A DNA stretch of 64,000 nucleotides from an uncultured Spirochaetaceae bacterium (GCA_944389065.1 CALXKZ010000007.1:62001-126000), one strand, 5' to 3'; shown: positions 23,094 to 54,270, counted from the first letter of the stretch. The notes: a model not told the origin generated them from the letters alone. Numbers and translations: made by a program.

Positions 23094-24116
23094 ATGGTCA
23101 CACTGAAGGAAATAGCCGATAAGGCTGGTGTATCTATTGGGACTGTTGACAGGGTTCTTCACAACAGGGGGCGGGTGTCAAAGGAGAATATTGAGCTCAT
23201 ACTCCGCATAGCCAAGGAAAATGGCTATGTTCCCAATCAGGTGGCCAGAAGGCTTCAGAGGAACAGGCAATATGCTTTCGGGGTTCTTCTCCCTGCGCTG
23301 GAATCTGAATTCGGATACTGGCAGCAGATAAAGGAAGGAATAGAGGATGCAAGGAGGGAACTCAATTCCCTTGATGTCGATATCATCTATTCATTCTATG
23401 ACAGACGGAGTCAGGAGGATTTCCTCTCTGCAGCAGAGCATCTCTTCTCCCATGATATTTCCGCATATATTATGGCACCTCTGATGGGAGATGCTACTTA
23501 TCATGTTGTTGCAGAGCACAAGGCCATACCTGTTGCTTTTATTGATTCATCTTTGCCTGGTGTCGTTCCTTTCTGTGATTTTTCCCAGGATCCTTGCCAG
23601 GCTGGGCGTACTGCTTCGCGTGTAATGGATTTCTTCTCCTCCTCCCTTGATGCTGTATTCACCGTGCAGACTTACAGCAGCGCCTACAATGGAAGAATGA
23701 GAGCAGAATCATTCTGCAATGCTTACAGGAAGGAGCATCCCGCTGTTGAACTGCAGAATATGAATATAGCTGCCGAAGATGAATTCAGGGATATTCCCAG
23801 ACTCATGGATCGTTATGGCCGCATCGGTATATTCGTTGTAAATGACGGCGTGCATAAAGTTGTGGACAGGCTCTCCTCTTATGATGATATATCCCGCTTC
23901 ACTATAATCGGATTCGATCTCTCTCCTGAAAACAGAAGACTTCTCGAATCTGGTCTGATTTCCGCGATAATAGGGCAGAGGCCCCGGGCTCAGGGATATG
24001 AGGCTGCCCTGTATCTTTACAGGAAGATCGTGCTTGGACAGGAGCGGCATATAGTTCACATCCCTGTTGATATATACATCAGGGAAAATGTTCCGGAAGA
24101 TAAATCCTGGTTCTGA
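23094..24116 (+). CDS. LacI-family transcriptional regulator (arabinose operon candidate)
   Basis: Cytosolic DNA-binding repressor or activator with a LacI-type helix-turn-helix (TLKEIADKAGVSIGTVDRVL) and hinge helix (VPNQVARRLQRNR), then a periplasmic-binding-protein-like effector domain. Length 340 is typical. It sits directly before araABD, whose promoter carries an 18-base palindrome centred on CG as in LacI-family operators, so L-arabinose or a derivative is the likely effector. No ribosome binding site precedes the ATG. A half-operator TGCGTT at 23075-23080 may mean autoregulation, though this could be chance. Confidence 0.92.
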   Translation: MVTLKEIADKAGVSIGTVDRVLHNRGRVSKENIELILRIAKENGYVPNQVARRLQRNRQYAFGVLLPALESEFGYWQQIKEGIEDARRELNSLDVDIIYSFYDRRSQEDFLSAAEHLFSHDISAYIMAPLMGDATYHVVAEHKAIPVAFIDSSLPGVVPFCDFSQDPCQAGRTASRVMDFFSSSLDAVFTVQTYSSAYNGRMRAESFCNAYRKEHPAVELQNMNIAAEDEFRDIPRLMDRYGRIGIFVVNDGVHKVVDRLSSYDDISRFTIIGFDLSPENRRLLESGLISAIIGQRPRAQGYEAALYLYRKIVLGQERHIVHIPVDIYIRENVPEDKSWF

Positions 24117-24125
24117 TTGTTTTTC

Positions 24126-24178
24126 TTGACTTTATCAGAGGCTGTGAGACAATTTATCTATGCGTTATCGTTAACGCA
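24126..24178 (+). promoter_or_regulatory. araA promoter with palindromic operator
   Basis: TTGACT (24126-24131), a 16-base spacer and GACAAT, followed at 24161-24178 by TGCGTTATCGTTAACGCA. Its halves match at eight of nine positions around a central CG. The palindrome covers the expected transcription start, a placement that suits repression by the adjacent LacI-type regulator. Confidence 0.75.
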
Positions 24179-24196
24179 GATATAAAAGGAGAAATT

Positions 24197-25672
24197 ATGG
24201 CGTATAAGTTCTATTTTGCTGCTGGTTCTCAGGATCTGTATGGCAATGAGTGCCTTGACCATGTGAAAGCTCATGCAGAGGCTATTGTGAGAGCTTTGAA
24301 TGAAAGCGGGGTGCTTCCGTTCGAGCTTGTTTTCAAGCCGACTCTTCTGACATCGGATGGTATATTCAGATTCTTCTCAGAGGCAAATGATGACGATGAG
24401 TGTGCCGGAACAATTGTATGGATGCATACTTTCAGTCCTGCAAAAGCATGGATAAAAGGTCTCATGGCAGCAAGAAAGCCTATACTTCATCTTCATACCC
24501 AGTTCAATGAAGCTCTTCCTTTTTCCTCAATCGACATGGATTTCATGAATGAGAACCAGTCTGCCCATGGAGACAGAGAGTTCGGTTTCATGATGACAAG
24601 GCTTGGTATTCCCCGTGAAGTTGTGGTCGGACATTGGTCTCATAATGATGTCCAGAACAGGATTGCGGGATGGATGCAGACAGCAATCGGCATAATTGCC
24701 TCTGGCAAGGTGCGTGTATGCCGCCTTGCTGATAATATGCGCGATGTTGCGGATACGGAAGGCGATAAGGTCGAGACCGCGATAAAGTTCGGATGGACTG
24801 TTGATGCATGGCCAGTGAATGAGGCCGTGAAGTATGTCGATGCTGTTACACCAGGTGAGATAAGCACTCTGACAGATGAGTACTATTCAAAATATAGTAT
24901 TCTTCTTGAAGGACAGGATGAGAAAGAGTTCCGGAAGCATGTCGAGGTGCAGGCGGGTATAGAAATCGGATTTGAGCGCTTTCTTTCCGAACGTGGATAC
25001 AATGCTGTTGTAACGCATTTCGGAGATTTAGGAGGACTTAAGCAGCTTCCCGGGCTTGCGATACAGCGTCTTATGGAGAAGGGATATGGCTTTGGTGCAG
25101 AAGGGGACTGGAAGACTGCTGCGCTTGTGAGAGTCATGAAGGAAATGACGGGAAATAAAGGAACAAGTTTCTTTGAGGATTATACGTATCACCTTCTTCC
25201 TGGCAGTGAGGCTGTACTTGAGGCCCATATGCTTGAAGTATGCCCTACAGTTGCTGATGGCGGGATATCAATAAAGGTATGTCCTCTTTCAATGGGAAAC
25301 AAGGAAGATCCAGCCCGTCTGGTATATACCTGCCGTACAGGTAAGGCCATTGCTGTCTCCATGGTTGATATGGGCGGAAGACTTAGGCTTATCATAAATG
25401 ATGTTGAATGCCTTTCTGTGCCTGAAGCAATGCCTAAGCTTCCTGTTGCTACAGCGTACTGGAAGCCGATGCCTGATCTGATCCGAGGCGCAGAGGCCTG
25501 GATACTTGCAGGAGGCGGCCATCATACATCTTTCTCATATAATCTTACATCGCATCAGATGAAAGCATGGGCTGAGGCTATGGGGATAGAGGCGCTTGTT
25601 ATAGACTCTTCCCTGGATATCGATGATTTCAAGGATAAGATGCGCTGGAATGAGATATACTACAGACGATAA
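24197..25672 (+). CDS. araA: L-arabinose isomerase
   Basis: Converts L-arabinose to L-ribulose, the first step of arabinose use. It aligns along its length with AraA: GSQDLYGNE at the N-terminus, WMHTFSPAKAWIKGL, FHTQFNEALP-like LHTQFNEALPFSSIDMDFMN, KQLPGLAIQRLMEKGYGFGA, EGDWKTAAL, FEDYTYHL and GGGHHTSFS. The Glu of EGDWK and the His residues of YTYH and GGHH are metal or active-site residues in the E. coli enzyme. The usual FEDL Glu (E. coli E306) reads FGDL here (Gly276). A strong AAGGAG precedes the ATG. First gene of araABD; no transporter is in the operon. Confidence 0.96.
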   Translation: MAYKFYFAAGSQDLYGNECLDHVKAHAEAIVRALNESGVLPFELVFKPTLLTSDGIFRFFSEANDDDECAGTIVWMHTFSPAKAWIKGLMAARKPILHLHTQFNEALPFSSIDMDFMNENQSAHGDREFGFMMTRLGIPREVVVGHWSHNDVQNRIAGWMQTAIGIIASGKVRVCRLADNMRDVADTEGDKVETAIKFGWTVDAWPVNEAVKYVDAVTPGEISTLTDEYYSKYSILLEGQDEKEFRKHVEVQAGIEIGFERFLSERGYNAVVTHFGDLGGLKQLPGLAIQRLMEKGYGFGAEGDWKTAALVRVMKEMTGNKGTSFFEDYTYHLLPGSEAVLEAHMLEVCPTVADGGISIKVCPLSMGNKEDPARLVYTCRTGKAIAVSMVDMGGRLRLIINDVECLSVPEAMPKLPVATAYWKPMPDLIRGAEAWILAGGGHHTSFSYNLTSHQMKAWAEAMGIEALVIDSSLDIDDFKDKMRWNEIYYRR

Positions 25673-25683
25673 GGAATTGATCA

Positions 25684-27279
25684 ATGGACGAAAGGATAAA
25701 AAAGGAGATAGCTGATGGCCAATGCGTCATCGGTATTGAGTTCGGGTCAACGCGCATAAAGGCTGTTCTTATAGATAGCTTATGCAATCCCATAGCATCT
25801 GGTGCATATGACTGGGAAAACAGAAATGAGGACGGAGTATGGACTTATAGCATTGAGGATATAAAGAAAGGACTCTGTGCATCCTATATGGATCTCAAGG
25901 AAGATGTCAGGAAGGAATATGGGCTGACGCTGAAGAGAATCAGGGCAATGGGCGTCTCTGCGATGATGCATGGGTACATGGCATTTGATAGCTGCGGTAA
26001 TCTCCTTACTCCTTTCAGGACATGGAGGAATAACATAACAGAGGCGGAGTCGGAAGAGCTCACTGCGCTCTTTGGCTATCCTATAGCCCAGCGTTGGACA
26101 GTAAGCCATCTTCTGAAGGATATCAAGGAGAAAAAACCATATCTTGATAAGCTTGCCCATGTCTCTACCCTTGCAAGCTATGTGAATAAGCTTCTTACAG
26201 GTGAGAAGACAATCGGCATCGGCGATGCTTCAGGAATGTTCCCTATCGATACGGAAACCAAGGACTATATGGACAGTGCTGTCTCTCTCTTCGATAGCAG
26301 CTATGCTTCAGAGTATCCATGGGGAATCCGGGATATTTTCCCGGAAGTGCTTCTTGCAGGAGAGACTGCAGGATATCTGACAGCCGAAGGGGCTATGCTT
26401 CTTGATAGCGAAGGCGATCTGGAACCAGGATGTCCCCTCTGCCCTCCAGAAGGTGATGCGGAGACAGGGATGATGGCTACAAACTCGGTTGCTGCAAGAA
26501 CTGGGAATGTATCTGCAGGGACAAGCGTGTTTGCAATGGTCGTTCTCGAGAAACCTCTTTCTAAGGCTTACTCTTCTCTCGATATCGTCACAACCCCTGA
26601 CGGGCGTCTTGTGGCTATGTCCCACAGCAATAACTGCACTGGCAGCTATGACGCATGGTTCTCTCTTTTCGGAGAGGTCGTTGAGGCTTTGGGTTTTGAT
26701 GTGAAAAAGCCTGTTCTTTATGACACTTTGCTTGCAAAGGCTCTTGAAGGGGATCCTGACTGCGGCGGTCTTCTTAGCTATGGGTATATTTCCGGAGAGC
26801 ATATAACAGGATTCTCTGAAGGGAGGCCTCTTGTTGCAAGGCACCCCGATGCCCACTTCACGCTTGCCAATTTCGTCAGGGCAGAGCTCTTCACATCACT
26901 CTGTGCTATGCGTACCGGTCTTGATATCCTTTTTGAAAAAGAAGGAGCAAGCCTTGATATGCTTTCCGGCCATGGTGGGTTCTTCAAGACTGCAACTGTA
27001 GGGCAGCGCATAATGGCTGCTGCGGCAAAGACTCCTTGCAGGGTGCTTAAGACTGCAGGAGAGGGCGGGGCCTGGGGTATAGCGCTTCTTGCTGATTATC
27101 TGTCCCATAAGGAGATGGCTTTGCCGGACTATCTTGATACCTGTGTCTTTGCATCTGCAGAGAGCAGTATTGTATCTCCTCTTCCGGAGGATATGGAGGG
27201 ATTTGATGAGTTCCTGAGACGCTATCAGAAAGGACTGGCAATAGAAAGGGCTGCTGTTGAGAATCTTGGAAAGGAGTGA
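25684..27279 (+). CDS. FGGY-family carbohydrate kinase, probable L-ribulokinase
   Basis: Sugar kinase of the FGGY family (531 residues), expected to make L-ribulose-5-phosphate. Seen: N-terminal ATPase loop [34 protein letters not shown], adenosine-binding GTSVFAMVV, and the FGGY-type C-terminal segment [13 protein letters not shown] with [16 protein letters not shown]. It resembles the non-canonical ribulokinases found with araA and araD in Firmicutes more than E. coli AraB. The operon position between isomerase and epimerase supports the assignment. Confidence 0.9.
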
Positions 27280-27281
27280 TC

Positions 27282-27971
27282 ATGCTTGAAGAACTGAAGA
27301 AGAAAGTGCTGGAGGCAAATCTGATGCTTCCAGAGTACGGACTTGTGACATTTACATGGGGAAATGTATCTGAGATAGATCGGACATCTGGTCTGATTGC
27401 CATTAAGCCAAGCGGGGTATCATATAAGACGATGACTGCCGATGATATTGTCATTCTCGATCTTGAAGGCAATATCGTTGAAGGAAAACTCAGGCCTTCC
27501 AGTGATGCACCGACCCATATTGTGCTTTACAAGGCTTTCCCTGAGATCGGAGGAATAGTCCATACCCATTCTTCCTGGGCGACAAGCTGGGCACAGGCAG
27601 GAGAGTCAATCCCTTGCTTTGGGACAACGCATGCAGATTATTTCTATGGTCCGATTCCCTGTGCCAGGCCTCTTACCGATGATGAGATAAGCACGGAGTA
27701 TGAGAAGAATACAGGATATGTGATCGCAGATACATTCCGAGGTAAGGATCCGATGGCAGTTCCTGCTGTGCTTTGTGCCAACCATGGTCCTTTTGCCTGG
27801 GGGAAGGATTCCTTTGAGGCTGTGCATAATGCCGTCGTTGTCGAAGAGGTTGCGAAGATGGCGGCCAGGGCCCTTGCCATAAACCCTGATGCAAAACCTG
27901 CTCCTCAGTCAATCATGGATAAGCATTACTTCCGCAAGCATGGTGCCAATGCTTACTATGGCCAGAAATAA
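27282..27971 (+). CDS. araD: L-ribulose-5-phosphate 4-epimerase
   Basis: Class II aldolase-fold zinc epimerase giving D-xylulose-5-phosphate for the pentose phosphate pathway. The opening [20 protein letters not shown] is very close to E. coli AraD, followed by [15 protein letters not shown], the zinc ligands VHTHSSW, FYGPIPC, and ANHGPFAWG. Length 229 matches. The ATG at 27282 has AGGAG five bases upstream; a GTG two codons earlier overlaps the kinase stop but is less suitable. Last gene of araABD, ended by a strong hairpin. Confidence 0.96.
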
Positions 27972-42000: not shown

Positions 42001-42723
42001 TCAGTTGTCATCGATATCTTTCTGAGATGCCATGATCGTATTGTGTATTGAGATGATTATATCTTCCCAGTTTGCGATTTCCATGACTTTCTCATAGTTT
42101 CTGAGAGAGTTTCTTATGTGTATTTCCGTGCTTTTCACTGTGGCTTTCTCGTTCATGGAAATCAATCCATGCAGGATATTCTCATGTTCCTTGAATGAAT
42201 TCCCGTATCTAGCCGGAGTAAGCATTGAGAGCCATCGGATTCTCTCGCTCATGAATTCAAGCTCTTTGGCAAGATTGAAAGCTAACGAGTTTCCTGAAAT
42301 CTCGACCAGCTTCATATGAAACTCAGAATCGGGCTTGAATGTATTCTGTATGGCATGGGAATCTATGGCTTCCTTGAATCTGCGCTGCATGTCCTCAAGC
42401 TCCAGCCTCTGGGAATCGGAGAGCCCGCCATTCTGTATTATTTTCCTGACCGAGAACAGTTCGACAGCTTCTCTTAGCTCGAATACATCGGTAATCACAG
42501 GATTGGTGATATGCGTGACAAGGAAGCGGTATCCGGATTTCTCTATCAGCCCTGTGTTGGCAAGTCTTGTCATTGCTTCTCTTACAGGGGTCCTGCTTAT
42601 TGAGAGCTCCTGGGAGATCGCGGAATCAGAGACGACATCCCCGGGTTTCAGTTCATACTGGGTTATCTGGTTCCTGATGTATCTGAATGCGATATCTGTT
42701 GCATCGCTTTTTTTCCTTGCCAT
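42001..42723 (-). CDS. GntR-family (FadR/FCD-type) transcriptional regulator
   Basis: Repressor of 240 residues with an N-terminal winged helix (DIAFRYIRNQITQYELKPGD, then ISQELSISRTPVREAMTRLA) and a C-terminal all-helical FCD ligand domain with metal-type residues (DSEFHMKLVEISGN; HENILHGL). The start MARKKSD has GAGG six bases upstream. It is divergent to the DUF362/TRAP operon. Four TTGTATACAA-like palindromes lie between, one on each -10 box, so it most likely represses both itself and the operon until a sugar acid binds. Confidence 0.95.
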   Translation of the reverse strand: MARKKSDATDIAFRYIRNQITQYELKPGDVVSDSAISQELSISRTPVREAMTRLANTGLIEKSGYRFLVTHITNPVITDVFELREAVELFSVRKIIQNGGLSDSQRLELEDMQRRFKEAIDSHAIQNTFKPDSEFHMKLVEISGNSLAFNLAKELEFMSERIRWLSMLTPARYGNSFKEHENILHGLISMNEKATVKSTEIHIRNSLRNYEKVMEIANWEDIIISIHNTIMASQKDIDDN

Positions 42724-42740
42724 TATTATCCTCATTGCAG

Positions 42741-42770
42741 ATTGTATCCAATAATCTGTTTTCTTGTCAA
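42741..42770 (-). promoter_or_regulatory. gntR promoter with overlapping operator O1
   Basis: On the minus strand TTGACA (42770-42765), an 18-base spacer and TACAAT (42746-42741). Operator-like ATTGTATCCAAT (42741-42752) covers the -10, which suits autorepression. Confidence 0.75.
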
Positions 42771-42790
42771 ACTTTTACTTATCATCAACT

Positions 42791-42849
42791 ATTGAATACA
42801 ATTCTGATATTGAATGATTTTGCATACCCTATGATTAAATGTATACATT
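42791..42849. promoter_or_regulatory. operators O2 and O3 for the GntR regulator
   Basis: ATTGAATACAAT (42791-42802) and the perfect palindrome AATGTATACATT (42838-42849). Both match the ATTGTATACAAT pattern of the promoter-overlapping sites with one or two changes. Confidence 0.6.
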
Positions 42850-42952
42850 TCGTTAGAAATAATATATTTGACTGCAAGGAAATAAGAATTCAGATATTAA
42901 ATTATCGTTAATAAATCACCCAGAAAGGTTGCAAAAATGTGATGATTTTCAT

Positions 42953-42991
42953 TTGACATATGAAAAATGAGGCTGAATAATTGTATACAAT
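42953..42991 (+). promoter_or_regulatory. promoter of the DUF362/TRAP operon with operator O4
   Basis: TTGACA (42953-42958), exactly 17 bases, AATAAT (42976-42981). The perfect palindrome ATTGTATACAAT (42980-42991) begins inside the -10 and covers the start site. AGGAGG follows before the ATG. Confidence 0.8.
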
Positions 42992-43038
42992 AAATGGGGC
43001 AAAGAATGCCTGTTTATCAAAAAAGGAGGAGTGCTTGA

Positions 43039-44256
43039 ATGGCAAAGGTTTCGATTGTAAGGAAGCCAGTTCCAGAGATGCCTGATTCATATTCGTCAGA
43101 AAGCCTCACAGTCATTCTGGATATGATAGATGAGACTTTCCGTAATCTGGGAGGTTATGCAGAGGTTACGGGGTGCCCGAAGTCGGTTATCATCAAGCCC
43201 AATCTTGTTGAAGTTCCTTACCCTGGCACAGGCGGATCGGTGATGACAGATCCCCGTGTACTTGAGGCATTGGTTATGTATCTGAAGGATCAGGGGGTTT
43301 CCGATGTCATTGTCGCAGAAGGCAAATCGGTCAATCTCAAGCATATTTCCTCTGGGGCTATTGATGCGTTCAATAAATCCGGAATGGGAGAGGCTGTCAG
43401 GAGAGCAGGTGCTCGCCTTGTAGGATGGGATGAAGAGCCTTTTGTTGAAGTTCCGATACCTGATGGACAGCTTATGAGCTCTGTAAGAGTTCCTAAATCA
43501 ATTCTTGATACAGATTATTTCATCAATGTCCCGAAGCTTAAGACTCATTGCCAGACTGAAGTGACAATAGGCATAAAGAGCATGCAAGGCGTTTATTCTG
43601 TTGAGGATAAAGTCCGTTTCCATAATGAGGCTTTCCCGTGGAAGATGCTCGATATGCTCCGTGCCGCAAAGCCGGATCTGAATATTGTTGATGGAATAAT
43701 CGCCGGTGAGGGTTATGGGCCGATATATACAAAACCTGTGAAGATGGATCTCATCATTGCTTCAGAGGATGTCGTTGCAACTGATGTCGTCTCGGGCAAG
43801 GTCATGATGATTGATCCAATTGATGTTCCCATTACCCGCCTCGCTGCAGCGGAAGGACTTGGAGAAGGGGATATCGACAAGATTGAGATAGCAGGGGAAT
43901 CCATCGATTCTGTTTCATATCGTTTCCAGAGACCGCAGGGATGGAATCCGATAGGAATGCATAAGCATCTGAAGATATTCGCAGGATGCGCATGCAGATT
44001 CGAGCTCTGCCAGATTGGAGCTGCAGTGCAGCGGCTTACCATCGATGGAAAGCTTGAAAGGCTGAATCAGGATGTATGCATCATCGTTGGAAGCAAAGCG
44101 CCTGTTCCGGTCCAGCATTATGAGAATGTGATCATCGTTGGCGATGATGCCATGGATCACCCTTGGTATGGAAAGCATCAGTTCATACCGGGAAATCCAC
44201 CGCTTCCATCTGTTCAGATTGTCGAAGCAATAGAGCAATACCTCGATAAGGAATGA
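43039..44256 (+). CDS. DUF362 domain protein
   Basis: Soluble 405-residue protein of the DUF362 family, function unknown. Seen: IIKPNLVEVPYPGTGGSVMTDPRV-type opening (conserved KPN), VIVAEGKS, and the core motif NVPKLKTH followed by TIGIKSMQG, and DGIIAGEGYGP. There are few cysteines (FAGCACRFELC) and no ferredoxin motif, unlike the Fe-S members. K-x-H and then K ten residues later resembles the cofactor-binding signature of lactate racemase LarA. First gene of the GntR-controlled operon, five bases before the enolase-superfamily gene. Confidence 0.85.
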   Translation: MAKVSIVRKPVPEMPDSYSSESLTVILDMIDETFRNLGGYAEVTGCPKSVIIKPNLVEVPYPGTGGSVMTDPRVLEALVMYLKDQGVSDVIVAEGKSVNLKHISSGAIDAFNKSGMGEAVRRAGARLVGWDEEPFVEVPIPDGQLMSSVRVPKSILDTDYFINVPKLKTHCQTEVTIGIKSMQGVYSVEDKVRFHNEAFPWKMLDMLRAAKPDLNIVDGIIAGEGYGPIYTKPVKMDLIIASEDVVATDVVSGKVMMIDPIDVPITRLAAAEGLGEGDIDKIEIAGESIDSVSYRFQRPQGWNPIGMHKHLKIFAGCACRFELCQIGAAVQRLTIDGKLERLNQDVCIIVGSKAPVPVQHYENVIIVGDDAMDHPWYGKHQFIPGNPPLPSVQIVEAIEQYLDKE

Positions 44257-44260
44257 AGCA

Positions 44261-45403
44261 ATGAAGATAAAGAATGTTGAAGTTTTCCCTTTGGAGTTTC
44301 CTCTTGAGTATCCATCCCAGGATGCGACAGGGGTATGGGATAATTGGAGTACAGTGATCGTCAAGGTCACAGCAGAGGACGGTACTGCGGGTTACGGTGA
44401 GGTCGGTCCGCTTCATGGAGGTGGTCTTCCTGCAGTTACCGGATTGATTGAAAGCAGACTCAAGCGTCTTGTGATAGGAGAGGATTGCTTCCAGCGCGAA
44501 AAGCTCTTCGAGAAGATGGTCGGCAGAGGTACGAGCGCATATGCATTAGGTCCTGTCGGAGCTGCAGTGAGCGCTGCCGCTGGTATAGATATTGCTCTCT
44601 GGGATCTGGCCGGAAAGCTTCTTGATACTCCTGTATATAACCTCCTTGGAGGTCTCGTTCATGAGAAGATACCGGCATATGCCTCGGGTTTCTTCGGTAT
44701 CAAGGGAAGAGCATTGACTGCAGAAGAGTGCGGAGAGGAAGCTAGGCAGTATCGTGATCAGGGGTTCAGGGGCGTGAAGATGAAGATCGGCTTCGGCTAT
44801 AGCCAGGATATGGCGAACCTTGAAGCTGTGAGAAAGGCTCTGGGGCCGGATCTTGGGATAATGGTTGATGCGAATCAGTGCTTTGATTATCCGGATCTGA
44901 TGGGTCACATTGATGGATATAAGGCATTTGACCTGACATTCATAGAGGAGCCTTTAAGGATAAATGATCTGTACAATATGGCTAATCTTGCAGTGAATGC
45001 AGGTGTTCCGATTGCTGCCGGTGAGAACTACTATGGTAAGTATCAGTTCCGTGATGTGCTGGAGCATCATGCCGTGAATATTATCCAGCCTGATATCATC
45101 CATGCAGGCGGCATTACGGAAACAAAGAAGATTGCGGCTATGGCAATGTCCTACGATATTCCTCTTTGCCCCCATATCCATGCATCAGTGGCTGTATCGG
45201 CTGCTGTGCAGATGCTTGGATCCTGCAGTGGATCCCTTGCGGCGGAATATATCACATCTGGTGGATCATATGATCTCAGATGCAGGCTCTGCCCAGGTAG
45301 CTACATGGTTGAAGATGGGTATGTACCTGTTCCGGATGCGCCAGGACTCGGCATTGAAGTCGATGAACGTGTATTCGAGGAATACTACCCGAAATGGATG
45401 TGA
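44261..45403 (+). CDS. enolase-superfamily enzyme, mandelate racemase subgroup (sugar-acid dehydratase or epimerase)
   Basis: The 380-residue protein has the complete mandelate-racemase-type active site. Lys173/Lys175 lie in GVKMKIG, the metal ligands are Asp203 (MVDANQ), Glu229 (FIEEP) and Glu255 (AAGENYY), and the Asp278-His305 dyad sits in IIQPDI and LCPHIHAS. The spacing from the first metal ligand on equals that of mandelate racemase. Such enzymes abstract the proton alpha to a carboxylate. The TRAP importer behind it points to a hexonate, hexarate or uronate-like acid; the exact substrate is unknown. Confidence 0.9.
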   Translation: MKIKNVEVFPLEFPLEYPSQDATGVWDNWSTVIVKVTAEDGTAGYGEVGPLHGGGLPAVTGLIESRLKRLVIGEDCFQREKLFEKMVGRGTSAYALGPVGAAVSAAAGIDIALWDLAGKLLDTPVYNLLGGLVHEKIPAYASGFFGIKGRALTAEECGEEARQYRDQGFRGVKMKIGFGYSQDMANLEAVRKALGPDLGIMVDANQCFDYPDLMGHIDGYKAFDLTFIEEPLRINDLYNMANLAVNAGVPIAAGENYYGKYQFRDVLEHHAVNIIQPDIIHAGGITETKKIAAMAMSYDIPLCPHIHASVAVSAAVQMLGSCSGSLAAEYITSGGSYDLRCRLCPGSYMVEDGYVPVPDAPGLGIEVDERVFEEYYPKWM

Positions 45404-45438
45404 TTTTCTTTCATGAATGATTCAAAAGGAGGACAAAC

Positions 45439-46461
45439 ATGAAAAGAATTCTGACTATTGTTCTGATTGCGCTCGCAGTCGTGGCCCCGGCTTTCGCAAA
45501 TGGTGCAGGAGAGGCACCGGAGTATGTATTCAAGGCGACGACAAGCCATTCAAGATCTGTTGATTCCGCAGAGCTGCTCTATCTCGATATTCTCAAAGAG
45601 ACTCTTGAGACAGAGACAAATGGCCGCGTACGTGTTGACATCTATCCGAGTGAGCAGCTTGGAAACCAGACCGAGATGGTCCAGGGCGTCCAGGCCGGAA
45701 CGATTGAGATCGCAACTCCGAACTATGCTATTCTCAATAGCTATTTCCCGGAAACGATCCTGCCTACAGTCCCTGGATTCCTTTCCGATGCAACAGAGGT
45801 AAACGAGATAATGTCGGGTCCTTGGGGACAGGATCTGCATAAGAGAATGGAAGAGGCTACAGGAATCAAGGTCCTGTCTTCTCTTTCAAACGGATTCCGC
45901 TGCTTTACAAGCAACAAGCCGCTTAGCACTGTCGACAGCATAAAGGGACAGACTTTCCGTGTTATGCAGAATCAGATCTCTGTGCAGATGGTTGAGGCTC
46001 TTGGCGCACACGCAGTTCCAATGGCATCCGGAGAAATGTACCAGGCACTCCAGAATGGCATAGTCGATGGACAGGAGAACCCTGTGAACAACATCCTCGT
46101 TGATAAGACATATGAAGTCCAGAAGTATATGGTTATGGACAACCATATGGCATCAATGTGTGCCTTCATCATGAATGCCAAGCTTTATCATAGCCTTCCT
46201 GATGATATCCGCCAGGCTCTTGATAATGCTGTCGCGAAGGCAGAGCAGGCTGCTATCGATGCATATGTTGTTATTGAGTCGGAAGGCATCAAGAAGCTTC
46301 AGGACTACGGTCTTGAGATTTACTTCCCGACAACCGAAGAGCTCCTTGCATGGCAGGCTCCGATCATGGAAGCCACAGAGAGCTATGCTCGTGAAACGCT
46401 CGGCGATGCTCCTGTTGATGATTTCAAGGCAGTCATCCAGGAATACAGAGCCAGCCATTAG
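45439..46461 (+). CDS. TRAP transporter substrate-binding protein DctP
   Basis: Periplasmic receptor of a TRAP importer, 340 residues. The signal peptide (KRILTIVLIALAVVAPAFA) is followed by NGAGEAPE. DctP features: HSRSVDSAELLYLDILKETL, RVRVDIYPSEQLGNQTEMVQ, the carboxylate-binding Arg region KGQTFRVMQNQ, and ALQNGIVDGQENPVNNI. AGGAGG is upstream. It delivers an organic or sugar acid to the DctQM permease encoded next. Confidence 0.95.
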   Translation: MKRILTIVLIALAVVAPAFANGAGEAPEYVFKATTSHSRSVDSAELLYLDILKETLETETNGRVRVDIYPSEQLGNQTEMVQGVQAGTIEIATPNYAILNSYFPETILPTVPGFLSDATEVNEIMSGPWGQDLHKRMEEATGIKVLSSLSNGFRCFTSNKPLSTVDSIKGQTFRVMQNQISVQMVEALGAHAVPMASGEMYQALQNGIVDGQENPVNNILVDKTYEVQKYMVMDNHMASMCAFIMNAKLYHSLPDDIRQALDNAVAKAEQAAIDAYVVIESEGIKKLQDYGLEIYFPTTEELLAWQAPIMEATESYARETLGDAPVDDFKAVIQEYRASH

Positions 46462-46514
46462 TAGCCCAGACTGCATCCGGCTCCTTTACCGGGGCCGGAT
46501 ATCAAGGAGGAAAT

Positions 46515-47069
46515 ATGCTGAAATCAGTTTATGCAGGGTTGTCTAAGGTTTCTGATATCCTGCAGAAGATAATCGAGGCTGTACTTGCAATCCTCATTGC
46601 AACAAGTCTTTTCGATCTCCTATTTCAGATTGCTTATCGCTTTATTATCATAAAATTCGTTGCATTGCATGCTAGCTTCACCGAGGAGTATGCACGTTAT
46701 GCGATGATCTGGATCGCGTATTTAGGCATTGCTGTCTGTTTCAAAGAAGGCACCATGCCGACACTCAATCTCCTTACCGATGCATTCAAGGGCAAGGCGA
46801 AGTATGTTCTGTATGCAATCACAAGAATACTGATGCTGATGTTCCTTTATGTGGGAATACGGTATGGATTTGCCCAGGTTCTCAATATGCTCAATTACAG
46901 GTCTCCTGTTATGTATATCCCGGGCGTATTCCTTTATTCCGCTCCTTTCCTGGCCTGTGTTCTCCTTCTGTTTGAGATGGTAATCGAAATCATCGGAGTC
47001 ATTTCCGGAGAGCTTCAGCCGTTTGAATCCCGCGGAAAGGGAGATGCAGATATAGTGGAGGCAATGTAA
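46515..47069 (+). CDS. TRAP transporter small permease DctQ
   Basis: Four-helix membrane subunit of 184 residues. Hydrophobic stretches lie at about 17-37, 58-78, 96-117 and 135-158, and the family motif EEYARYAMIWIAYLGIAVCF with KEG is present. The stop and the dctM start share a base (TAATG). GGAGG precedes the ATG. Confidence 0.92.
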   Translation: MLKSVYAGLSKVSDILQKIIEAVLAILIATSLFDLLFQIAYRFIIIKFVALHASFTEEYARYAMIWIAYLGIAVCFKEGTMPTLNLLTDAFKGKAKYVLYAITRILMLMFLYVGIRYGFAQVLNMLNYRSPVMYIPGVFLYSAPFLACVLLLFEMVIEIIGVISGELQPFESRGKGDADIVEAM

Positions 47070-48352
47070 TGACAGCTTTGATTCTTCTTATTGTATTCAT
47101 TGGAACGGTTGTTATTGGCCTTCCAGTATTCTTCTCCATGGGATTCATTTCCATGTATGGTCTTGAATCGCTGGGCTTTACCAATTTCATGGTGATTGCT
47201 CAGAAAATGTTCAGTGGAATAGATAATTTCACATATCTCTGTATCCCATTGTTTGTTCTCTCTGGTGAGATCATGAGCCGATGCGGAATCCTGAAGAATC
47301 TTGAAGAGTTCTGTACATCGCTTGTTGGACATATCAGGGGCGGTCTTGCTCAGGTCAACGTCCTGGGAAGCATGCTCTTCGCTGGAATAAGCGGATCTGC
47401 TACTGCCGATATGACCAGTCTTGGAAAGATTGAGATCGAGATGATGGAAGAGGCTGGGTACAATCGCCTGTATGCAACTACAGTCACTGCAGCAAGCGCG
47501 ATACTGTCCCCGATCATACCACCATCGAATATCATGATCATATATGCAGTATGCGCTGGAAACGTATCTGTTACGGCGATGTTCCTTGCAGGTATACTCC
47601 CTGGCATTCTTCTTGGTATTGTCCAGATGGCTCTCTGCTATGTCTATGCTATAAAGTTCAACCATCCTCGTGACAGGAAGTTCACATGGAGGGAAAGGCT
47701 CCGCGTATTCTATGAATCCGCTCCAGCCCTTGGTCTTCCTGTGATCATCCTCGGTGGTATTCTCCTTGGTATATTCACTGCAACTGAGGCAAGCGCAATC
47801 GCAGTCGCATATGCTCTTATTGTCGCTCTGGTAAAGAAGACTATAACTTGGAAATCCTTCTTTGAGAGCTGTGTCGGAGCTGCAAAATCAACTGCCAACG
47901 TTCTTGCAATCATCGGTATTGCAAGTGCGATGGCATATACGATCACAGTATTGAGGATTCCGCAGGAACTTGTAGATTTCTTCAGCACAGTCATAACAAC
48001 ACAGACTGGCTTCCTGCTTTTCTGCAATGTGCTTCTCCTGATAATGGGTCTTTTCATGGATCAGGCGCCTGCTCTGCTGGTAATCACACCTGTTCTCCTT
48101 CCTCTTGCGATGGAGTTCGGAGTGAATCCTGTCCATTTCGGAATAATCGTTTGTCTGAACCTGACAATCGGACTCATAACACCGCCTGTTGGAATGCAGC
48201 TATTCGTAGGTGCGAATGTCGGACGAGTCAAGCTCAGTGCTCTCTATAAGAGCATAATACCGTTCTGTCTTGTCAGCCTTATTGCTCTTGTAGTAGTCAC
48301 ATTCTTCCCGCCGGTAGTGACATTCCTGCCGAGCCTTCTGGGGTATATCTGA
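47069..48352 (+). CDS. TRAP transporter large permease DctM
   Basis: Polytopic subunit of 427 residues forming the sodium-driven pathway. It has many hydrophobic segments and DctM motifs (GLPVFFSMG, FAGISGSATADMTSLGKIEI, ILSPIIPPSNIMIIYA, LITPPVGMQLFVGA). It overlaps dctQ and the LarA-like gene by one base each, so importer and catabolic genes are strictly linked. Confidence 0.95.
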   Translation: MTALILLIVFIGTVVIGLPVFFSMGFISMYGLESLGFTNFMVIAQKMFSGIDNFTYLCIPLFVLSGEIMSRCGILKNLEEFCTSLVGHIRGGLAQVNVLGSMLFAGISGSATADMTSLGKIEIEMMEEAGYNRLYATTVTAASAILSPIIPPSNIMIIYAVCAGNVSVTAMFLAGILPGILLGIVQMALCYVYAIKFNHPRDRKFTWRERLRVFYESAPALGLPVIILGGILLGIFTATEASAIAVAYALIVALVKKTITWKSFFESCVGAAKSTANVLAIIGIASAMAYTITVLRIPQELVDFFSTVITTQTGFLLFCNVLLLIMGLFMDQAPALLVITPVLLPLAMEFGVNPVHFGIIVCLNLTIGLITPPVGMQLFVGANVGRVKLSALYKSIIPFCLVSLIALVVVTFFPPVVTFLPSLLGYI

Positions 48353-49620
48353 TGGGTAGCGTAAATGAAATGCTGAAGGATATCCCGATCCCGAAAATGG
48401 TCAGGATACGTGAGAAATTCGATAGAACAGCTCTTGACGATGTTGCAGCTGCTGTCAGGAAAGAGCTAGATCGGGACGAGGTTATTGCCAGAATACGTCC
48501 AGGCATGACTATTGCATTGACAGCTGGCAGCAGAGGAGTTGCCAACATAGCGCTTGTCATCAGGGAGACTGCCAGCTTCCTCAAAGAGCATGGAGCAAAG
48601 CCTTTTGTAATCCCTGCGATGGGAAGCCATGGCGGATCAACAGCTGAAGGCCAGCTGGCAATAATCCGGGAGTATGGTGTCACAGAGGACTATGTCGGAT
48701 GCCCTGTTATCGCGACAATGGATACGGTTAAGATCGGAGAGCTGGATGATGGCCGTCCGATAATGATCAACAGGCTTGCAGCAGAAGCTGATGCGATAAT
48801 CTCGATCAACAGGATCAAGGCCCATACGGCTTTCCATGGCAAGTATGAAAGCGGTGTCATGAAGATGCTTACCATCGGTCTTGGCTGTCAGTTCGGAGCC
48901 CAGGTCTGTCACAGGCAGGGCATCATGCACCTTGGTCCTAATGTTGAGAAATTCGCTTTCGGCATACTGAAGAATGCCAATGTCATTCTTGGTATCGGGC
49001 TGATAGAGAATGCTTTCGACCAGACTGCGATGGTGCGTGTTATGACAAAGGAGCAGATTCCTGTCGAAGAGCCGGTACTGCTGGAGAAAGCCAAATCGCT
49101 TATGGCGAAGATACTCTTCCCTGAAGTCGATGTTATGGTTGTGGATTACATCGGAAAGAATATCAGCGGGGAAGGTATGGATCCTAATGTCTCAGGAAGG
49201 TGGATTGTCCCTAATATCCAGGGAGGAATCGATGCACAGCGCATCGCTGTGCTTGATATCACGGATGAGACGCTTGGGAATGTCGTGGGCCTGGGAATGG
49301 CTGATACATGCTCGAAACGTGTAGTTGAGAAAATGGACAGGGATCAGACATATCCGAACAGCCTGACGTCGACGGTCACATGTCTTTGCAGGATCCCTAT
49401 GTATTTTGATACGCAGAAACTGACAATACAGGCTGCGATAAAGATGGCTGCAGGGGTAGAACCCGAGGATGTTACGATGATCCGTATCCGCGATACTCTT
49501 TCCCTAGGAGAAATATGGATCAGTGAGAATCTTGTCCCCAAAGCAAGGGAAAACCCGCTTATTGAGATAATAGGAGAACCTGAGGAGATGGTTTTCAACG
49601 ATGATGGAGACCTTTTCTGA
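48352..49620 (+). CDS. LarA-like (DUF2088 / nickel-pincer racemase superfamily) protein
   Basis: The 422-residue protein belongs to the LarA superfamily, whose founder lactate racemase uses a nickel pincer nucleotide bound to a lysine. Seen: ALTAGSRGVANI, PAMGSHGGSTAEGQ (LarA-type H loop), RIKAHTAFHGKYESGVMKM and LTIGLG (K-x-H and Lys region), and VCHRQGIMHLG. No larB, larC or larE cofactor genes are in the window. In this operon it may epimerise the imported acid; this is inference. One-base overlap with dctM, followed by a hairpin terminator. Confidence 0.85.
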   Translation: MGSVNEMLKDIPIPKMVRIREKFDRTALDDVAAAVRKELDRDEVIARIRPGMTIALTAGSRGVANIALVIRETASFLKEHGAKPFVIPAMGSHGGSTAEGQLAIIREYGVTEDYVGCPVIATMDTVKIGELDDGRPIMINRLAAEADAIISINRIKAHTAFHGKYESGVMKMLTIGLGCQFGAQVCHRQGIMHLGPNVEKFAFGILKNANVILGIGLIENAFDQTAMVRVMTKEQIPVEEPVLLEKAKSLMAKILFPEVDVMVVDYIGKNISGEGMDPNVSGRWIVPNIQGGIDAQRIAVLDITDETLGNVVGLGMADTCSKRVVEKMDRDQTYPNSLTSTVTCLCRIPMYFDTQKLTIQAAIKMAAGVEPEDVTMIRIRDTLSLGEIWISENLVPKARENPLIEIIGEPEEMVFNDDGDLF

Positions 49621-51590: not shown

Positions 51591-52919
51591 ATGACCCCGG
51601 TTATTTCCAGAATGGAGATCTTCATGGTCGCTGGCCATGACTCAATGGAACTGAATCTATCCGGAGCCCATGCTCCATATTTTACACGCAATATTGTTAT
51701 CCTGACCGATAGTACCGGTGCAGAGGGCGTAGGAGAGGTCCCCGGCGGACAGAAGATCGCAAAGGCACTGGAGGCTGTGCGGGAGATTGTCATAGGTACT
51801 TCCCTTGCAGATTATAAGCAGATGCTTGGCAAGGTCAGGTCCTGGCTGGATAGAAATATAAGCGATGATGTGCGCGGATTGCAGACATTCGACCAGAGAA
51901 CCGGAGTCCATGTCGTGACAGCAATAGAGGCCCCCTGTCTGGATCTTCTTGGCAAATATCTTGGTGTTCCTGCCGCTGCGCTTATGGGAGATGGGATACA
52001 GCGTAGAAGAGTCCAGTTCCTTTCATACCTGTTCTATATCGGGGATAGAAGGAAGACAGATCTTCCATATATGGATGAATCGGATTCCGATTGTGAATGG
52101 TACCGGCTGAGAAACGAGGAGGCCATGACGGCAGAAGCGGTTCTCAGGCTTGCGCATGCAACACATGATAAATACGGGTTCATAGATTTCAAGCTTAAGG
52201 GCGGGGTGTTCTCTCCCCGGCAGGAGCTTGAGGCTGTGAAGCTCATAAAGAGGGATTTCCCAGAAGCCCGTGTCGATCTTGATCCTAATGGCTGCTGGTC
52301 TCTCAGAGAGGCTCTTGAGGTTGCTCCTGAACTTAGGGATGTTCTTGCTTACTGTGAGGATCCCTGCGGAGCAGAGGGAGGATTCTCTGGCAGAGAGATC
52401 ATGGCCGAGTTCAAGAGATTATCAGGAATGCAGACTGCTACGAATATGGTAGATACCGACTGGAGGCAGATGGCGCACTGCATTGCCTTGAACAGTGTTG
52501 ATATTCCTCTTGCAGATCCGCATTTCTGGACAATGGAAGGTTCTGTCAGGGTAGGACAGCTCTGTGCTGATTTCGGTCTGATGTGGGGTTGCCATTCAAA
52601 CAACCATTTTGATATTTCCCTGGCAATGGTTGTTCAGTGCGCAGCTGCGATCCCCGGCAGGATGAATGGCATAGATACCCATTGGATCTGGCAGGAAGGA
52701 CGAGAACGTCTTACAAAGCAGCCTCTGGAGATACATGATGGCTGTATAGATCTGCCATCAAAGCCTGGACTTGGAATAGAGGCAGACAGAAAGCAGATAG
52801 AGAAAGCCGCGGAGCTATTCAGAGAGAATTGTCTCGGAGCACGTGATGATGCGAAAGGTATGCAGTACCTTATTCCCGGCTGGAAATTCGATAATAAAAG
52901 ACCATGTATGGTGAGGTGA
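51591..52919 (+). CDS. gudD: glucarate dehydratase
   Basis: Enolase-superfamily dehydratase converting D-glucarate (and L-idarate) to 5-keto-4-deoxyglucarate. It aligns with E. coli GudD throughout, and every catalytic residue is present with a constant offset of four: Lys201/Lys203 (FKLKGG), Asp231, Glu256, Asn285, Asp309 and His335 (CHSNNHFD). The end [20 protein letters not shown] is the family tail. Length 442. GGAGGAG precedes the ATG. It is followed four bases later by a paralogue. The aldolase and reductase of the pathway are not in the window. Confidence 0.95.
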
Positions 52920-52923
52920 TATT

Positions 52924-54270
52924 ATGGCAAAGACCCCTATTATAAGAAAGATGGAAGTAATCCCAGTTGCTGGTTATGATAGCATGCTGATGACTCTCTC
53001 CGGAGCTCATGCACCTGTATTCACAAGGAATCTTGTTGTTCTTACTGATTCTGCCGGCAATGAGGGAATAGGCGAAATCCATGGCGGCGACTATGCTATG
53101 TCGTTTCTGAATGAGCTCATACCGCTTGTGGAGGGCCGGGAAATCGGTATGTATCACCATATTCTGCAGGATATCCATACGATATATGACAAGACCCGCA
53201 CAGGACAGGATGATCTGCAGACTCTGGATCTTGCAAAGCTTAAATTCGTTGTGAAGACCGAATGGGCTCTGGAATGTGCTTTGCTTGATCTGTATGGACA
53301 GTTTCTTGGACTTCCGATGGCAGAGCTTCTGGGGGAAGGGAAAAGACGGGATGAGGTAGAGATCCTTGGTTATCTTTTCTATGTCTCTGACAGGAAGAAG
53401 GCAAAGGGAGCGCCTCTGGAGTATATCGATGAGTCTGCTTCTTCCGATCCCTGGTTCCGGCTCAGAAGAGAGCCGATCCTTACCCCAGAACGCATTGTTG
53501 AGGAAGCATCGGCTGTAAAGGATAAATACGGAGTATCCAATTTCAAGCTCAAGGGCGGGGTTATGAAGGGCTCGGAAGAGGTCGAGGCCCTTAGAGCCAT
53601 AAGGAAGGCTTTCCCTGATGCAAGGATCAATATCGATCCGAATGGCGCATGGCCGCTTAAGGAAGCAATCGAGCTTGGAAAGGAGATGACTGGTCTTGTC
53701 ACATATGTAGAGGATCCCTGCGGCCCTGAGGATGGCTACTCCGGAAGAGAGATAATGAGGGAATTCAAGAATGCTGTGAATCTTCCCGTTGCAACCAATA
53801 TGATAGCGACGAACTGGCGCCAGCTTTACCATACGATAATAGAGTCTGCCTGTGATATCATCCTTGCCGATCCGCATTTCTGGGGATTCGAGGGAACGAT
53901 AAGAATGTCCCAGCTTCTTGAGCCATGGGGGCTGACATGGGGTATCCATTCAAACAATCACTTCGATATCACACTGGCGGCTTATGTCCAGGTTGGAGCT
54001 GCTGCTATTGGGAATATTGCTCCGCTTGATACCCATTGGATATGGCAAGATGGACAGAATCTTCTGCTTGATACTCCTGAAATACGCAATGGGCATATCA
54101 TTCTGCCAGATGGCCCGGGACTCGGAGTGCACCTTAATCGCCAGCGCGTCGAAGAAGCGAACAGGCTCTATTATAGTCTTCCTTCACATGACAGGAACGA
54201 TGCCGAGTATATGCAGTATCTTATTCCCGGATGGACTTACGATTCGAAAAAGCCATGTCTTGTCAGATGA
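52924..54270 (+). CDS. glucarate dehydratase paralogue (GudX-like)
   Basis: Second member of the glucarate dehydratase family, 448 residues. The catalytic set is intact (Lys208/Lys210, Asp238, Glu263, Asn292, Asp316, His342). Surface and loop features ([21 protein letters not shown]) are nearer E. coli GudX, the GudD-related protein that often accompanies GudD. It could epimerise or dehydrate another hexarate such as idarate or galactarate, or form mixed oligomers. The pair forms an operon. The stop lies eight bases from the convergent U32 gene. Confidence 0.9.
   Translation: MAKTPIIRKMEVIPVAGYDSMLMTLSGAHAPVFTRNLVVLTDSAGNEGIGEIHGGDYAMSFLNELIPLVEGREIGMYHHILQDIHTIYDKTRTGQDDLQTLDLAKLKFVVKTEWALECALLDLYGQFLGLPMAELLGEGKRRDEVEILGYLFYVSDRKKAKGAPLEYIDESASSDPWFRLRREPILTPERIVEEASAVKDKYGVSNFKLKGGVMKGSEEVEALRAIRKAFPDARINIDPNGAWPLKEAIELGKEMTGLVTYVEDPCGPEDGYSGREIMREFKNAVNLPVATNMIATNWRQLYHTIIESACDIILADPHFWGFEGTIRMSQLLEPWGLTWGIHSNNHFDITLAAYVQVGAAAIGNIAPLDTHWIWQDGQNLLLDTPEIRNGHIILPDGPGLGVHLNRQRVEEANRLYYSLPSHDRNDAEYMQYLIPGWTYDSKKPCLVR

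Follow-up and report, generated by a model that had tools for sequence, protein, structure and literature searches.

A predicted acid-sugar operon in an uncultured Spirochaetaceae bacterium joins a gene pair for DUF362 and a probable dehydratase to a TRAP transporter and a LarA homologue

A 64,000-nt stretch of DNA from an uncultured Spirochaetaceae bacterium (GCA_944389065.1 CALXKZ010000007.1:62001-126000), referred to here as the window, carries at positions 42741-49620 a six-gene operon with its control region. The operon encodes a DUF362 protein, an enolase-superfamily enzyme of the mandelate racemase (MR) subgroup, a tripartite ATP-independent periplasmic (TRAP) transporter, and a group-22 homologue of the nickel-pincer enzyme LarA. 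As judged from gene content and conservation, the operon is a join of two modules, one formed by the DUF362 and MR-type genes and the other by the TRAP and LarA genes. It is an ordinary kind of system, namely acid-sugar catabolism, built from known families in an undescribed arrangement, and its best explanation, which we hold to be somewhat better than an even bet, is the substrate-induced uptake and breakdown of a sugar acid.

Gene content, conservation and control region

All genes of the locus were assigned to families by Pfam matches above cut-off, and the profile matches to DctP, DctQ and DctM identify a complete TRAP set within the operon. The genes and associated features are as follows:

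42001..42735, - strand: GntR/FCD-family transcriptional regulator, divergent from the operon (PF07729, 57.9 bits; PF00392, 42 bits)
42741..42991, no strand: four operator-like palindromes ATTGTATACAAT, at 42741, 42791, 42838 and 42980, with 0-2 mismatches
42953..42981, + strand: sigma-70-like promoter, TTGACA-17-AATAAT, 11/12 matches, its -10 element abutting the exact operator
43039..44256, + strand: DUF362 protein, 405 aa (PF04015, 172.4 bits), with a predicted LarA-clan fold and invariant H170, K180 and H195
44261..45403, + strand: MR-subgroup enolase-superfamily enzyme, probable acid-sugar dehydratase (PF13378/PF02746, catalytic residues), adjoining DUF362 in 8/8 related loci
45439..46461, + strand: TRAP solute-binding protein DctP (PF03480, 249.6 bits; TIGR00787, 209 bits)
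46515..47069, + strand: TRAP small membrane subunit DctQ (PF04290, 55.7 bits)
47069..48352, + strand: TRAP large membrane subunit DctM (PF06808, 391.2 bits; TIGR00786, 419.2 bits)
48352..49620, + strand: group-22 LarA homologue, probable nickel-pincer aldonate C2-epimerase (NF052515, 501.8 bits, cut-off 400)

The two modules are distinguished by their distribution. Among 297 genomes of the window's class, 54 encode a group-22 LarA protein above cut-off, and of 76 DNA stretches fetched around these genes only those from genomes G249 (locus L117) and G008 (locus L118) contain the whole operon with its regulator besides the window; in all, the complete operon was found in three genomes, which represent two genera of one family. 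The operon genes are 91-97% identical to those of the window in L117 and 59-80% in L118, and a GntR ortholog (81% and 56% identical, respectively) lies divergently at the same place. When GTDB genomes were scanned for the DUF362 protein by two short peptide patterns, a search that leaves further members to be expected, eight loci were returned: L117, L118, and six from metagenome-assembled genomes (MAGs) labelled Thalassospirochaeta, Spirochaetales, Lentisphaerae, Planctomycetota, Paludibacter and Calditrichaeota, although MAG binning may mislabel short contigs (L123, L124). The MR-type gene (57-94% identity of the product) directly follows DUF362 in every one of the eight, and TRAP and LarA genes are near the pair only in L117 and L118, which is the reason for regarding DUF362-MR and TRAP-LarA as separate modules. 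The DUF362-MR pair, which occurs in MAGs of Spirochaetes, Lentisphaerae, Planctomycetes, Bacteroidetes and Calditrichaeota and mostly stands apart from LarA and TRAP, may be the older of the two because of this wider spread. The other module, consisting of a TRAP or TctABC transporter and a group-22 LarA, recurs in acid-sugar loci of many bacteria.

These results bear on an original prediction made from the DNA alone. Its six tightly packed genes, with intergenic gaps of 4, 35, 53, -1 and -1 bases, were recovered identically in a check of open reading frames (ORFs), and its reading of a GntR-controlled acid-sugar operon with TRAP import is supported. The treatment of the six genes as one unit gave way to the two modules described above: DUF362 is linked to the enolase-superfamily gene, LarA goes with the transporter and with other dehydratases, and all of them were found together in just three genomes. 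Judged by the refuting conditions of that prediction, DUF362 and LarA have no general link to one another, and one near-complete genome carrying the full operon is without larC and larE. The statement that no such combination had been described holds for the exact set; near-analogues without DUF362 exist in Sporomusa and Haladaptatus. No paper came up in a literature search on lactate racemase together with TRAP transporter and enolase superfamily, and the conserved pairing of DUF362 with a dehydratase across five phyla appears to be undescribed.

The single promoter carrying a regulator palindrome, also part of that prediction, was found again as the TTGACA-17-AATAAT site. The exact copy of ATTGTATACAAT, at 42980-42991, sits directly on the -10 end, and the three copies with 1-2 mismatches fall with it inside 251 bases of the intergenic region. 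Sites with two or fewer mismatches to ATTGTATACAAT number 9 in the window against 2.19 expected, a count reached in 0 of 100 shuffles; promoter-like sites show no excess over the region taken as a whole (10 found, 12.0 expected). The placement of a palindrome directly on the -10 end is repeated in L117, the closest ortholog, and in similar form in L118, and related palindromes (ATTGTNNACAAT) lie upstream of DUF362 in loci L119 and L120; in L122 they are found beside the GntR gene.

The DUF362 protein and its enolase-superfamily partner

The match of the DUF362 protein to PF04015 lies far above the gathering cut-off of 24 bits. DUF362 and Lar_N are placed by Pfam in one clan (PMC11770544), and the LarA protein of the window itself gives a weak match (2.2e-6) to the DUF362 model. 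A structure model built from nine sequences (mean pLDDT, a per-residue confidence score, of 71.6) retrieved malate racemase as the sole match below E 1e-3, and the best 12 rows of a VIA-align comparison were all members of the LarA superfamily (Z 9.3-11.0; next 6.1). H170, K180 and H195 are invariant in 26/26 sequences, distant paralogues included, and their H-x9-K-x14-H arrangement has a spacing of 10 and 15 residues, as compared with 10 and 16 for His174/Lys184/His200 of LarA. Profile alignment of DUF362 with group-22 LarA is full-length (295 columns) but modest (E 3e-4, probability 38%), with both DUF362 histidines aligned to group-22 histidines and the lysine matched by spacing only, in a stretch of low confidence in the model; the same comparison with shallow alignments gave no match. 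Equivalents of Arg75 and His108 are absent, the corresponding motifs holding K53-P54-N55 and E94. DUF362 thus has a predicted LarA fold and may retain a portion of the LarA active site.

DUF362 might assist the MR enzyme as an accessory protein, or be a redox protein (Fe-S or metal), rather than being a pathway enzyme, but this is rather unlikely: DUF362 always adjoins the MR gene, a cysteine near the C-terminus (C319) is conserved in 17/17 distant DUF362 proteins, and no enzymatic activity is known for the family, whereas the predicted LarA-type fold and the conserved H/K/H positions suggest an active site. A more ambitious proposal, and a doubtful one, is that DUF362 proteins make up a further class of LarA-type hydroxy-acid isomerases, so far unrecognised, whose invariant lysine holds a cofactor, nickel-pincer nucleotide (NPN) or other; in this operon such an enzyme and group-22 LarA would work on two stereocentres of a single sugar acid ahead of the MR-type dehydratase. 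The literature found on DUF362 or DUF2088 names no function for DUF362, which figures there only as an outgroup from the same Pfam clan. A search of plasmids returned only distant relatives, and two MAGs with the DUF362-MR pair (G394 and G395) have no larC and no larE.

The MR-type enzyme carries the full residue set of its subgroup, as had been predicted. The KxK motif (K173/K175), the metal ligands D203-E229-E255 and the D278-H305 dyad are invariant in 9 homologues and line up with those of DauB (PDB 5olc). DauB is also the best match among solved structures and AtGCI (4ggb) the third, the identity of both structures being confirmed in PMC5698469. This likeness, together with the shared K/D-E-E/H set and an aldehyde dehydrogenase (ALDH) beside the pair in L122 that recalls dauA-dauB, is what would favour a DauB/AtGCI-like cycloisomerase acting on an anhydro-aldonate or aldarolactone, in an operon for breaking down an anhydro-sugar acid derived from polymers of algae or plants. 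We think this improbable. A tryptophan next to the catalytic histidine (Trp298), conserved in both DauB and AtGCI (PMC5698469), is replaced by H307 in the window enzyme, and on this ground the cycloisomerase assignment was rejected; the operon includes no polysaccharide-degrading genes, and MR enzymes beside group-22 LarA elsewhere are only 30-32% identical, so that contexts are not decisive.

Some contexts of the DUF362-MR pair outside the complete operon involve aldehyde oxidation. In L122 the pair is preceded by genes for a RhaT-type transporter, an aldose epimerase and an aldehyde dehydrogenase, and in L119, as well as by sequence reading in L120, its neighbour is a divergent gene for an aldehyde ferredoxin oxidoreductase. 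These arrangements suggest that the pair there receives an aldonate made by oxidation, as opposed to the direct import of the acid in the spirochaete operon. Near the pair in L119 (2439-5678 and 7931-9856) and L120 (2-1528 and 4884-6785), the aldehyde ferredoxin oxidoreductase is accompanied by an HbpS-like protein and a glycyl-radical enzyme, the latter joined by its activase in L119.

The group-22 LarA homologue

The last gene of the operon encodes a member of the NPN-dependent isomerase group 22 (NF052515). Residues R61, H93, H158, K171, H187 and K269 are invariant in 64 group-22 members and, matched by motif and spacing, are the equivalents of LarA Arg75, His108, His174, Lys184, His200 and Lys298, with the H158-K171 spacing 3 longer than in LarA. 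Across the class, group-22 genes neighbour genes for TctA, DctM, MR_MLE proteins, acid-sugar kinase domains (SBD_N/NBD_C), UxaC, IlvD/Edd and GntR.

In annotated plasmids of other bacteria, group-22 genes stand directly among those for cofactor synthesis. A Paenibacillus plasmid carries the operon uxaC-LarA22-SDR-larE-larB-larC1-larC2 (SDR, short-chain dehydrogenase/reductase) and a Loktanella plasmid UxaA-LarA22-hypothetical-larB-larC-larE; UxaA-LarA22-LarC with a 1-base overlap occurs in Pseudosulfitobacter, Sulfitobacter dubius and S. faviae, and in Roseicitreum larB and LarC/LarE flank IlvD/Edd-LarA22. The lar identities were checked with hidden Markov models (HMMs) in Loktanella, Pseudosulfitobacter, Roseicitreum and Paenibacillus, and group-22 membership in Sporomusa, Paenibacillus, Pseudosulfitobacter and Roseicitreum. 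Since in these bacteria group-22 genes lie in operons with larB, larC and/or larE beside altronate or arabinonate dehydratases, the protein is most likely a nickel-pincer C2-epimerase of an aldonate. The original assignment to the LarA superfamily stands, and the protein is very likely a nickel-pincer user, given the larE-larB-larC cluster of this genome and the lar linkage of the group elsewhere. No lar genes are nearby in three archaeal plasmid group-22 loci, one of which has an enolase-type enzyme in the cluster. On a Haladaptatus plasmid (L162, 2296-9766), an archaeal group-22 LarA is flanked by a 2-hydroxyacid dehydrogenase and by an SDR, a cupin and an enolase-type enzyme, and a further two MR enzymes are close by.

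Proposed pathway, cofactor supply and related systems

In the pathway that we infer for the operon, the TRAP system would import a sugar acid, and group-22 LarA would invert its C2 by nickel-pincer hydride transfer, making both C2 epimers usable. The MR-type enzyme would then dehydrate the acid to a 2-keto-3-deoxy acid. Placing a C2-epimerase ahead of a dehydratase makes chemical sense, since dehydration erases the stereochemistry at C2. DUF362, with its LarA fold and constant MR partner, probably acts on the same acid in a second epimerisation or another hydride step, and the GntR/FCD protein would keep the operon repressed by way of the four palindromes, release coming with binding of the acid or a derivative. 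What the sequence itself shows is the gene content, the operon layout, the families, the catalytic residues, the operators, the conservation of the modules and the lar genes of this genome; the class of substrate, the order of the steps and the chemistry of group-22 LarA and DUF362 are inferred. The nearest solved structures do not allow the substrate of the TRAP system to be read.

Several observations weigh against this pathway. The MR enzyme scores far below cut-off with the models of known dehydratases for arabinonate (206.2 bits, cut-off 650), galactonate (205.5, 311), gluconate/galactonate (171.8, 750) and talarate/galactarate (152.7, 500). In the LarA protein the equivalent of Asp72 is not conserved, being A58 in the window and A, V, C or S across group 22. 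No published group-22 activity was found, the group being absent among the tested enzymes of PMC7583248 and not recognisable in PMC11770544, and no biochemical data were found on any DUF362 protein or any group-22 LarA. Furthermore, G008/G393, a 99%-complete genome that carries the operon in full, contains no larC or larE above cut-off, and group 22 shows no co-occurrence with larC in the class (11/54 versus 54/243, p=0.86).

Cofactor supply was among the checks that the original prediction had proposed, and its outcome was divided. The genome of the window (2.3 Mb, 87% complete) does contain larE, a larB-like ORF and larC in one cluster on contig C39 (larE and larC over cut-off, the larB-like ORF lying between), as well as three further LarA homologues; the operon carrier G008/G393, as noted, lacks larC and larE. 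These two genes co-occur almost perfectly in the class (62/65 each), and their absence is not obviously a failure of detection, because the HMMs used find divergent larC and larE elsewhere. That the LarA-like protein, at least in spirochaetes, does not use NPN made by larBCE, having another or scavenged cofactor or none, would fit the lack of both larC and larE in 43/54 group-22 genomes of the class, single-contig and 99%-complete genomes included, but is the least probable of the alternatives considered, as several bacteria show a direct linkage of group 22 to lar genes, its lysine and histidine ligand positions are invariant, the window genome carries lar genes, and NF033504 lactate racemases are equally unassociated (larC/larE in 12/43), so that group 22 is no special case. 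Some complete genomes, G257 for instance, have LarA proteins of both kinds and no larC or larE over cut-off. A group 22 that does not use NPN, as read from the larC/larE mismatch, was dropped as the leading view in light of the lar operons elsewhere and the same pattern in NF033504. On C39 (L006, 188-2980, of genome G000), genes read by eye as an ABC-transporter ATPase and a small FmdE-like protein precede larE and the larB-like ORF, with larC downstream, possibly coupling metal uptake to nickel-pincer synthesis.

The nearest analogue of the operon is the pSPTER locus of Sporomusa termitida (SPTER_RS23910-RS23945), with genes for an MR enzyme, TctCBA, LarA22, two UxaA proteins and GntR. The two loci have in common an MR enzyme, a tripartite transporter, a group-22 LarA (41% identical) and GntR; the Sporomusa locus differs in having TctCBA in place of TRAP, UxaA in addition, no DUF362, and an MR enzyme that is just 30% identical. 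The UxaA-LarA22-LarC loci of Roseobacter (Sulfitobacter, Pseudosulfitobacter) similarly hold GntR, a dehydratase, group-22 LarA and an NPN gene, but the dehydratase is of the UxaA type, and TRAP, DUF362 and MR genes are not adjacent. GntE aldonate epimerases (groups 19/20; PMC7583248) share with the window protein the superfamily, the NPN-binding and most catalytic residues, and an aldonate context, whereas the window protein belongs to group 22 and lacks the Asp72 equivalent. The carrageenan dau pathway (dauA ALDH, dauB MR/MLE; PMC5698469) likewise uses an MR-type enzyme, the one that gave the best structural match, to form a 2-keto-3-deoxy acid. It begins with aldose oxidation and has no DUF362 or LarA, unlike the window operon, which has TRAP import of the acid itself and lacks Trp298.

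Two other possible sugar loci lie in the window. At 51591-54270, 2 kb downstream of the operon and behind groEL, is a tandem pair of glucarate-dehydratase-like genes scoring 703.8 and 592.7 bits, each short of the 828.7 cut-off, and missing at the corresponding place in L117, which suggests a second acid-sugar locus. At 23094-27971, a by-eye reading indicates a LacI-type regulator followed by an L-arabinose-like cluster (isomerase, kinase, epimerase).

The most valuable parts of these findings are the cross-phylum DUF362-MR pair, the probable role of group 22 as an aldonate C2-epimerase, and the absence of cofactor genes from spirochaetes, many of which have LarA-superfamily genes but not the known genes for cofactor synthesis. 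An uncharacterised group of the nickel-pincer superfamily gains a testable role as a C2-epimerase feeding a dehydratase, and DUF362, a large family of no known function, gains an enzyme partner that is constant across five phyla, together with a candidate active site.

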